Source: an uncultured Actinomycetes bacterium | Lineage (GTDB): Bacteria > Actinomycetota > Actinomycetes > Mycobacteriales > Nakamurellaceae | Direction of reading: 5' to 3' | DNA: 7,492 nucleotides | NCBI GenBank assembly: GCA_937926105.1 | Contig: CALANS010000202.1 | Location: 1-7,492, forward strand | In this document: piece after piece, positions 2 to 4,751 of the stretch | Layout: the number at the start of each line of letters is the position of its first letter | How positions within the stretch are numbered: the stretch's first letter is position 1 | Notes under the pieces: generated by a model | What the model saw: only the letters and a program-made list of their open reading frames with translations | The model's database searches: none | Told to the model about the DNA's origin: nothing | Program-made: the position numbers and the translations under genes

Positions 2-1330
2 GCCCTGATGGCCAGGCGCAGCGTCTACTGCTCCAAGCTCGCCAACGGCCCGCACTCCATCGCGAAATCGTTCACCACGGAGGACGGCAACATCTGGTTC
101 GAGCGCACCGAACACACCTGGGGCGGCGGCAAGCCCGAGCACCGCGTCGACCCCACCACAGGTGACGACATCACGATCTCCACCAACCGCCGATGTGTCT
201 TCTGCGGCGCCGGCGAAGACGACTACGGCCGCGGCGGTGAACTTGAGACTCACGCCTACGCGTTCATCCATACCAACGACATCAAGGCCCGCGTTGCGGA
301 GCTGTTCGGAGCGAGCATGCAGTTCGACGTCATCATCGGTAACCCGCCCTACCAGCTCAGCGATGGCGGTGGAAATGGCTCAAGCGCTTCGCCAATTTAT
401 CAGTTGTTCGTTGAGCAAGCGAAGAAGCTGGATCCTCGTTTTCTCACAATGATCGTCCCGTCGCGTTGGTTTACCGGCGGCAAAGGGCTCGACGCGTTTC
501 GCGAGGCGATGCTTTCCGACGGAAGAATCAGGCGGCTCGCCGATTACCCGATCTCTGCTGATGTGTTCCCAGCCAACGGGCCGAAGGGCGGCGTTTGTGC
601 CTTCCTTTGGAGCCGGGACGCCCCCGGCGCATGCGAGGTCACGACTCACTTCCAAGGTGCCAAGTCAGAATCGGTCCGCCCCCTCCTTGAACCCGGTGCT
701 GACGTATTCATTCGGTACAACGAGGGGCTCTCCGTCCTCCAGAAGGTGGCCGCTACGGAAGGCGCCGGACCGAGGTCGCTTGGGTTGCCTGAGGCCCGTC
801 GCTTCCGTGATCTAGTGAGCGTACGCAAGCCGTTTGGATTCTCATCGACGTTCCGTGGACGGAGTTCCGCGCGAAGCGGCGACCTACGAATCCTCCAGAA
901 GGGCGGCATCGGGTATGTGGCCCGCAAGGAGGTCCGTGCAGGGCTCGATCTCGTCGATGCTTGGAAGGTCTTCGTCGGATTCGCCGCACCCGGGACCGGG
1001 GACAAGGACACTTACCCGCATCGGATAATCAGCACGCCCTTTATTGGTGATCCGGGAACGGTCTCCACAGAGACCTACCTTGCTATCGGTCCATTCGATA
1101 GCAAGGCCGAGGCGGAGAGTGCTCTTGCGTATCTTTCATGTCGCGTGACGCGGTTCCTGATCCTGCTGCACAAGCCTTCCCAAAACACGACGAGGAACGT
1201 TTACACGTTTGTTCCTGTGCAAGATTGGTCGACGCAATGGACCGACGATCTTCTTCGCGAGCGGTATGGGATCACAGAGGACGAGATGGCCTTCATCGAC
1301 AAGGTCGTCCGGCCGATGGAGATCGAATGA
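2..1330 (+). CDS. Eco57I-family N6-adenine DNA methyltransferase (5' partial)
   Basis: The reading frame is open from the left window edge. Its first ATG is at base 8, but the SAM-binding motif I expected upstream is absent, so the gene almost certainly begins outside the window. Counting from that ATG (440 residues), the catalytic motif IV NPPY lies at 112-115, preceded by the hydrophobic strand FDVIIG. A cysteine pair C63-x2-C66 (with C8 further upstream) may bind a metal. Residues 116-215 match the methylase fold of Eco57I-type enzymes as I remember them (SASPIYQ, MIVPSRWF, GGVCAFLW). The C-terminal half, ending around SQNTTR (391-396) and VYTFVPVQDW, should hold target recognition. The family transfers a methyl group from SAM to adenine N6, either as a stand-alone methylase or as part of a restriction enzyme. 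The stop overlaps the next start (ATGA), which indicates one operon with the helicase-nuclease. Codon use shifts abruptly just after NPPY (see findings). The family call is firm; target sequence is unknown. Confidence 0.9.
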   Translation, partial: ALMARRSVYCSKLANGPHSIAKSFTTEDGNIWFERTEHTWGGGKPEHRVDPTTGDDITISTNRRCVFCGAGEDDYGRGGELETHAYAFIHTNDIKARVAELFGASMQFDVIIGNPPYQLSDGGGNGSSASPIYQLFVEQAKKLDPRFLTMIVPSRWFTGGKGLDAFREAMLSDGRIRRLADYPISADVFPANGPKGGVCAFLWSRDAPGACEVTTHFQGAKSESVRPLLEPGADVFIRYNEGLSVLQKVAATEGAGPRSLGLPEARRFRDLVSVRKPFGFSSTFRGRSSARSGDLRILQKGGIGYVARKEVRAGLDLVDAWKVFVGFAAPGTGDKDTYPHRIISTPFIGDPGTVSTETYLAIGPFDSKAEAESALAYLSCRVTRFLILLHKPSQNTTRNVYTFVPVQDWSTQWTDDLLRERYGITEDEMAFIDKVVRPMEIE

Positions 1331-3903: not shown

Positions 3904-4751
3904 GCACGACGCCCGTGAACGTGCAGATCCCGTCCGACGCCGAAGCGCCGGTCATCGCGGACTTTGTCGAGCACGCGCTGCGCGTCGCCTACGTCGATCG
4001 CGCGCACCTGGCATCGATGCCCGCTACGGACTGGGACGCGCCCGGCGTCTACGTGCTGCTCACCGCCGACGGAACGGGCCGGGTATACGTCGGCCAAGCA
4101 CGCAAGATTCGGAGCCGCTTGCTGCAACACAACACGAAAGAGAGGCTGCCCTGGCGACGGGCAGTGGCCGTGAAGCGCGATACCACCGACGGATTCAACA
4201 CCGCCGAAATCGGCTACCTGGAGGGCCGCGTTTCGGCCGAAATCGCCGCGCTCGCGAACATCACCGTCATCGAAGGCCAAACCAGCGGCGATGACACGCT
4301 CCCGAAGCACATGATGATCTCGCTCGACTCGTTCGTGAAGAGCATTCTCGCCGCACTCCGGCTCACCGGTGTGGTCACGGCTAGGCGGAACGTGGACACC
4401 GAGCTTGAAGACGAGCCCGGACCGGGAGACGCAGCCGCCACGCCCGCCGGTGGCCGCGCCTTTTTCCCGGTCAAGTTCAGCGACCTCGTATCCAGTGGCT
4501 TAATCCAAGCCGGCGAAACTCTCCATCTCAAACAGGGCCGGGCGGAAGGCAAAGGCACTGTCACCGCCGACGGCGAAATCGTCGTGCGTGGTGTCGCCTA
4601 CAAGTCGCCGAGCAGCGCCGCCGCGAGCGCGCTCGGCATGCAGTCCTCAAACGGCTGGACCACCTGGCGCGTCGGCAAACCGGACGGGCCGCTGCTCGAC
4701 TTGTTCCGCCAGCAATGGCTCGATCAGCAGAGATCCGAGGGCCAGTCGTGA
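3900..4751 (+). CDS. GIY-YIG nuclease with C-terminal RAMA/DUF4357-like domain
   Basis: The GTG start overlaps the helicase stop (GTGA) and follows a near-perfect Shine-Dalgarno sequence, giving 283 residues. The long open frame upstream is Arg/Gly-rich out-of-frame translation of the helicase gene. The GIY-YIG core is plain: GVYVLL (49-54), VYVGQA (62-67), R71 and R73 in the next helix, and acidic residues E103 and E108 in AEIGYLEGR, one of which is probably the metal-binding Glu. After an acidic Pro/Ala-rich linker (about 167-185), residues 191-248 form a small beta domain ending SSNGWTTWRV. This resembles the RAMA or DUF4357 domain often found in restriction-linked proteins and proposed in the literature to recognise modified DNA. 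The protein probably nicks or cuts DNA in the same system as the methylase and helicase. Whether it is the main nuclease, a modification reader or an accessory subunit cannot be told from sequence. Confidence 0.85.
   Translation: MSTTPVNVQIPSDAEAPVIADFVEHALRVAYVDRAHLASMPATDWDAPGVYVLLTADGTGRVYVGQARKIRSRLLQHNTKERLPWRRAVAVKRDTTDGFNTAEIGYLEGRVSAEIAALANITVIEGQTSGDDTLPKHMMISLDSFVKSILAALRLTGVVTARRNVDTELEDEPGPGDAAATPAGGRAFFPVKFSDLVSSGLIQAGETLHLKQGRAEGKGTVTADGEIVVRGVAYKSPSSAAASALGMQSSNGWTTWRVGKPDGPLLDLFRQQWLDQQRSEGQS

Follow-up and report, generated by a model that had tools for sequence, protein, structure and literature searches.

Three tightly packed genes at this locus, encoding an adenine methylase, a helicase that bears a GIY-YIG-like domain at its N-terminus and a second GIY-YIG protein, raise the question of whether they form a distinct restriction-like system, as the original prediction held, or a known core with an additional gene. 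The window (the whole stretch of 7,492 nucleotides that was analyzed) contains the features listed below; sequence and family matches agree with the predicted three-gene composition and both 4-base overlaps.

2..1330, + strand: partial gene for an M2-type subunit (g1), the C-terminal part of an Eco57I-type N6-adenine methylase with an NPPY motif (PF07669, 109.2 bits)
1327..1330, + strand: ATGA stop/start overlap of M2 and R (sequence)
1327..3903, + strand: gene for an R-type subunit (g2), with an N-terminal T5orf172 (GIY-YIG-like) domain and an SF2 helicase/translocase
3886..3903, + strand: module joint, with the end of R homology, an AAGGAGG-containing stretch and the GTGA overlap (blastn)
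3900-3903, + strand: GTGA overlap of R and g3 (sequence)
3900..4751, + strand: g3, a GIY-YIG plus RAMA protein of the PDC-S14 family, an embedded add-on (PDLC04921, E=6e-107)

The core of this locus is a known kind of restriction-modification (R-M) system, and its unusual part is the embedded g3 nuclease gene. The first two genes are the M2 and R subunits of a DrdVI-type system, composed of a split m6A methylase and a GIY-YIG helicase. The M2 of the window, whose 5' end is truncated by the contig edge, is 70% identical to the M2 of a relative (L128) and aligns at 59% identity with residues 116-535 of the 539 residues of M2.DrdVI; as it begins at residue 116, M1, which is absent from the contig, is expected upstream, beyond the edge. 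A tblastn search of plasmids with g2 returned 79 records (14 at a coverage of at least 80%), among them pDrdVI of Deinococcus wulumuqiensis NEB 479, whose R is 69% identical to g2 over 99%, in line with the restriction-like character originally assigned to the locus. The gene order on pDrdVI is DNA methyltransferase, Eco57I methylase and helicase. M1-2.DrdVI is a type IIG enzyme, plasmid-borne on pDrdVI, with m6A at GCAGCC (PMC6430315); DrdVI is termed "a fused translocase and REase" in the accessible part of PMC4996451, and that of PMC10113651 describes a split methylase gene family resembling DrdVI, with GCACY for MaeIV. The window shares with DrdVI and MaeIV the succession of a split m6A methylase with an Eco57I-type M2 and a GIY-YIG-helicase R, and thereby the make-up of a split Type IIG system: its R, with the N-terminal GIY-YIG-like domain and the helicase, is homologous to that of pDrdVI, and M2, albeit 5'-truncated, lies directly 5' of R in the same operon. 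It differs from DrdVI in that M1 falls outside the window and in that pDrdVI has no g3 3' of R. By analogy with DrdVI and MaeIV, the window system would be expected both to methylate and to restrict DNA.

Among 30 viral, plasmid and phage loci, M2 adjoins R in 26 and M1 in 24, with both present in 24; five of the six loci without M1 start at a record edge. The sixth, on plasmid pCRULAC2 (L021), includes a DrdVI-type R (79%) and neither M1 nor M2; a Tn3 transposase, an IS3 element and aminoglycoside-resistance genes lie nearby. Both methylase genes are also present in 13 of 14 genome loci, the exception being L138. The DrdVI-type core is an already published and widespread kind, not a new one. 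Accordingly, the idea of a new three-gene system was dropped after the match to pDrdVI and in view of the rarity of g3 beside R (see below): the core M1-M2-R, of which M1 is not visible in the window, is of the DrdVI kind with its published m6A specificity. A type III Mod/Res reading was rejected as well, g1 being an Eco57I methylase with no other methylase family above cut-off, and here the original prediction, which had set the locus apart from a classical type III Mod, was right. Type III Mod proteins are of the N6_N4_Mtase kind.

The T5orf172 match at the N-terminus of R scored 21.7 against a cut-off of 20, and PF10544 was precomputed for 11 of 120 listed R relatives. Residues Y20, K36, G38, T40, R47, D77 and E99 are invariant in all 22 aligned R proteins, and in all 22 the second Tyr of the GIY-YIG motif is a Lys, so that this domain, with the second Tyr missing, is to be viewed as a putative nuclease. 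In the predicted structure of R (pLDDT 68), the part beginning near residue 126 resembles SF2 translocases (the fold matches cover residues 126-643); the matches are dominated by helicases, with Type ISP LlaBIII and HsdR among those from Foldseek, and a comparison of R with the sequences of solved structures gave no useful match. No PD-(D/E)xK family was recognized in g2, in agreement with the helicase architecture originally proposed, and residues ∼644-858 are without a family or a clear solved-structure assignment. Type ISP enzymes (LlaBIII) and the fused IIG model PDLC03626, which matches both g1 and g2, likewise couple a helicase to a methylase, but they are single polypeptides, whereas the window encodes the two in separate genes. 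CglI and NgoAVII resemble the locus as ATP-dependent R-M systems in which a helicase is accompanied by a second nuclease protein. On the other hand, R.CglI is a PLD plus B3-like protein, and the accessible part of the source names no GIY-YIG domain for H.CglI; a CglI/NgoAVII assignment was rejected, as g3 is a GIY-YIG-RAMA protein and no PLD or B3 family was found among matches down to E 1.

The third gene, translationally coupled to R through the GTGA overlap as predicted, matches the PADLOC PDC-S14 model PDLC04921 over its full length (355.1 bits, residues 2-279 of 283). PDC-S14 is a PADLOC candidate overlapping GAO_29, restriction-like according to the parts available of PMC10855318 and PMC12753311; the candidate is listed as stand-alone, whereas the g3 of the window is appended to a DrdVI-type operon. 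The predicted structure supports the GIY-YIG fold that had been proposed for g3, and its Tyr/Tyr/Arg/Glu residues are present in the alignment: Y51, Y63, R73 and E108 are kept in 119, 119, 120 and 120 of 120 listed relatives, respectively (window protein counted). According to the available portion of PMC11037411, which names GIY-YIG-RAMA as a fusion, RAMA might act there like a 6mA-reading wH domain; further work on RAMA fusion endonucleases as 6mA readers is proposed there, and confirmation of an m6A preference failed for MPND, a RAMA protein. No report of an activity of any GIY-YIG-RAMA protein was found in the accessible literature texts, and the literature searched, which excludes preprints and most subscription papers, yielded no publication on a DrdVI and GIY-YIG-RAMA pairing or on PDC-S14 in Type I operons. 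The activity suggested for g3 below is drawn wholly from its domains and from the TgvAB precedent.

How regularly g3 accompanies R was assessed on 44 non-duplicate full-length R loci, of which the 42 with at least 1 kb downstream formed the counting base. Partial R matches and those below 38% identity (including L028) were dropped, together with 17 short loci (15 were places already fetched, L056 was another cut of the L044 place, and L055 was a ∼30% fused relative). A g3 gene adjoins R in a single one of the 42 DrdVI-type loci, and in 0 of 41 once the locus found through g3 itself (L044, from Nocardioides cavernae) is set aside; the latter has the order M1-M2-R-g3 with 61 bases between R and g3. 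This largely refutes the expectation that the three families would be conserved neighbors. A set of 394 genomes contained R in 9 and g3 matches in 25 (2 near full length), and a set of 396 contained R in 24 and g3 matches in 22 (7 near full length). The only listed genome with both R and g3 near full length is that of N. cavernae (G014); among the 16 genomes with g3 loci, R is present in this one, beside g3, and in one other (G005), on another contig. The 28 pattern matches to g3 in viral contigs yielded none confirmed, phages gave no match, and plasmids a single weak partial one.

The neighborhoods of 20 g3 relatives (including L142, L143, L144 and L146, with L145 omitted as a duplicate of L040) point to other partners. 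HsdM/S/R kin are found in the loci of 10 of them, and g3 lies directly 3' of hsdS in nine, one of which (L034) is decayed; in L043, the genes preceding g3 are hsdR and a YgjP-like one. Pfam supports the Type I assignment, wholly or in part, for L031, L032, L033, L034, L035, L037, L038, L039 and L043. Elsewhere the locus includes an ISP-type methylase (L042), an Eco57I methylase some genes upstream (L046) or the DrdVI trio (L044), and in the remaining 7 of 20, where part of the neighbors was scanned, no R-M gene was recognized. This distribution does not favor the dedicated two-strand or two-step machine originally proposed for the two GIY-YIG proteins. Their GIY-YIG domains show no profile similarity (hhalign probability 0.9%, 10 columns). 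Several of these loci have features of their own. The array at 4221-10825 of L046 (Eco57I methylase, HATPase-domain protein, two unknown genes, then g3) is possibly a further system. In L037 (6822-10835) the g3 copy is split over two frames, and the Type I locus also contains a YhcG-like (DUF1016) gene. Some g3-bearing Type I operons have an extra gene between hsdM and hsdS, namely Mrr (L031 7011-7934) or RhuM-Fic (L035 2393-3355).

The junction of R and g3 coincides with a change in the source of similarity. In blastn comparisons, the similarity of the window to its DrdVI relatives stops at 3878 (L128) and 3884 (L129); from 3886 (L037), 3900 (L031) and 3901 (L032 and L033) onward, the window is similar to Type I-linked copies. 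Eleven bases common to the window and the hsdS-g3 junction of L037 contain AAGGAGG and encode KEAA, resembling the C-terminal ends of HsdS proteins that precede g3; among 120 R relatives, KEA occurs within the last eight residues only in P0036. This is suggestive, but not proof, that the end of R was carried along from hsdS: the 11 bases are shared with L037 alone, their distance to the start codon is three bases greater in the window than in L037, and ribosome-binding stretches can arise convergently. No upstream match to the window was found in L031, L032 or L033. At the protein level, the window g3 is 67-82% identical to the copies in L031-L033 and L037, vs 33% to that in L044. In a tree of 21 g3 proteins (with several long branches and other parts unsure) the window copy shares a clade (97/95) with four copies linked to Type I genes, and the L044 copy groups with that of L042, which is ISP-linked (99/97). 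On this tree the Type I label is clustered (4 changes vs a shuffled mean of 7.2, with 7 of 500 shuffles as low). The DrdVI label needs two changes, hence the two DrdVI-linked copies do not form one clade; having only two rows, the shuffled labels need two as well. Overall, these sequence comparisons demonstrate a module exchange between DrdVI-type and Type I operons, and the nesting of the window copy suggests that g3 probably moved from Type I to DrdVI.

No HsdR, HsdS or HsdM remnants were found in the window at meaningful E-values (best 0.11), and by eye a 57-residue frame 3' of g3 bears little resemblance to HsdR starts. Further downstream, 4914-6158 encodes a coiled-coil protein with a hydrophobic, transmembrane-looking stretch (weak matches only, to coiled coils such as ZorA and JetC) and a GC3 of 0.59, vs 0.73-0.87 in the other genes. 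A XerC/D-like tyrosine recombinase gene at 6294-7358 is perhaps a piece of a mobile island.

Add-ons of other types were observed in DrdVI-type operons. In L135 (3104-10146, M1 start approximate), a gene with Pfam GmrSD_N, GmrSD_C and RAMA domains lies between M1 and M2, joined to them by overlaps of 4 bases each, ATGA (3745) and GTGA (5919). A GmrSD-RAMA gene also adjoins a DrdVI-type R convergently in L136 (10320-13337, - strand), and an OLD-like ATPase gene lies directly 3' of R in L130 (9058-10575, one-base overlap) and L131 (6220-7668, - strand). In L141, a 157-residue protein (10102-10575) overlapping the end of R by 4 bases resembles oligonucleotide cyclases in their C-terminal part (PADLOC Cyclase, 3.6e-31). 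As in Type I operons, accessory genes are therefore accepted in those of the DrdVI type.

From what was directly observed (gene content and order, family membership, conserved residues, the predicted g3 fold and the module exchange), the model that we favor, with slightly better than even confidence, is that a DrdVI-type R-M system carries, embedded at its 3' end, a nuclease that is autonomous, type IV-like and directed at modified DNA. M2 and M1, the latter encoded beyond the contig, would methylate adenine at a short asymmetric site, thus shielding the host, and R, which joins an N-terminal GIY-YIG-like nuclease domain to an ATP-driven SF2 translocase, would cut DNA with the unmodified site. 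g3 would work alone, its RAMA domain sensing a modification that makes DNA resistant to ordinary restriction and its GIY-YIG domain cutting, so that modified phages escaping M1-M2-R would be caught. That g3 acts as a type IV nuclease, on modified DNA only, is suggested by RAMA and by the precedent of the GmrSD-like TgvAB system, which lies within a Vibrio cholerae Type I operon and hits phages with hypermodified cytosines independently of HsdR restriction activity (PMC11411939, accessible part). As g3 presumably is, TgvAB is a modification-dependent nuclease encoded within an R-M operon, although it is a two-gene DUF262/DUF1524 nuclease of tested function, while the function of g3 is deduced. 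According to the same portion of the source, tgvAB alone gave 10- to 100-fold less protection against several phages than a comparison strain, hence the precedent itself may not be fully autonomous. The 7 of 20 g3 relatives with no R-M gene recognized among the neighbors scanned also count against the favored model, and so does a further point: were RAMA a plain m6A reader, g3 would be self-toxic through the partner methylase, and since such a reader endangers its own host, g3 would have to be context-specific or aimed at another modification.

The main rival, unlikely in our view, is that g3 is a PrrC-like guard, a nuclease kept inactive by the R-M complex and freed when a phage inhibits or overwhelms the enzyme, leading to abortive defence. 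Its precedent is prrC, a gene lying inside a Type IC R-M locus and activated upon EcoPrrI inhibition (PMC12707154, available text). It gains from L031, L032, L037 and L039, where g3 sits between hsdS and an hsdR encoding EcoR124_C, and from the overlap of 1-4 bases between hsdS stop and g3 start in eight of the nine hsdS-g3 loci. Nevertheless, a specific protein lock would be hard to keep with partners as varied as Type I, ISP-like and DrdVI-type systems, and none recognized in 7 of 20 cases, and RAMA suggests sensing of DNA rather than protein. The same variety of partners, the apparently unlinked g3 copies and the other DrdVI-operon add-ons (GmrSD-RAMA in L135, OLD-like ATPases in L130 and L131) would also suit a selfish or passenger defence gene with no functional link to its partner, for which an R-M operon is only a means of expression and joint inheritance. 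We hold this to be quite improbable, as RAMA is a methylase-associated domain, and 13 of 20 copies occur with adenine-methylating R-M genes, 12 of them with a methylase gene or fragment (raw counts).

The 4-base GTGA coupling in the window and the recurrence of the M1-M2-R-g3 order in L044, though with its 61-base gap, could indicate instead that g3 works as part of the restriction complex, as a subunit contributing a second nicking activity or site selection. Such a role appears decidedly improbable given the absence of g3 from 41 of 42 DrdVI-type loci, including those with the closest fetched R relatives (L128 and L129, 83-84%), the much greater identity of g3 to Type I-linked copies than to that of L044, and the separate placement of the two DrdVI-linked copies. 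Finally, the switch in similarity source at 3878-3886 and the shortness of the contig raise the suspicion of an assembly chimera of a DrdVI-type operon and a Type I-linked g3. We give this very little credence: at the joint, the R stop is intact and the GTGA start is in register, g3 is listed on two contigs, a second M1-M2-R-g3 locus exists (L044), and GC runs without a sharp step.

Beyond the favored model of an embedded type IV-like nuclease, one may speculate, with considerable doubt, that RAMA nucleases (GIY-YIG-RAMA and GmrSD-RAMA) are general plug-ins repeatedly recruited by unrelated m6A R-M operons (Type I, ISP-like and DrdVI), and that they read the adenine-modification state (the partner's mark, or its misplacement or lack on invaders) to distinguish self from non-self a second time. 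If so, one operon would both enforce and audit its own mark. The locus presents a candidate defence gene that moves, as a module, from one restriction system to another, unrelated one, and if the GIY-YIG-RAMA gene catches phages whose modification defeats the host R-M system, RAMA would be a working reader of modified DNA in bacterial defence.
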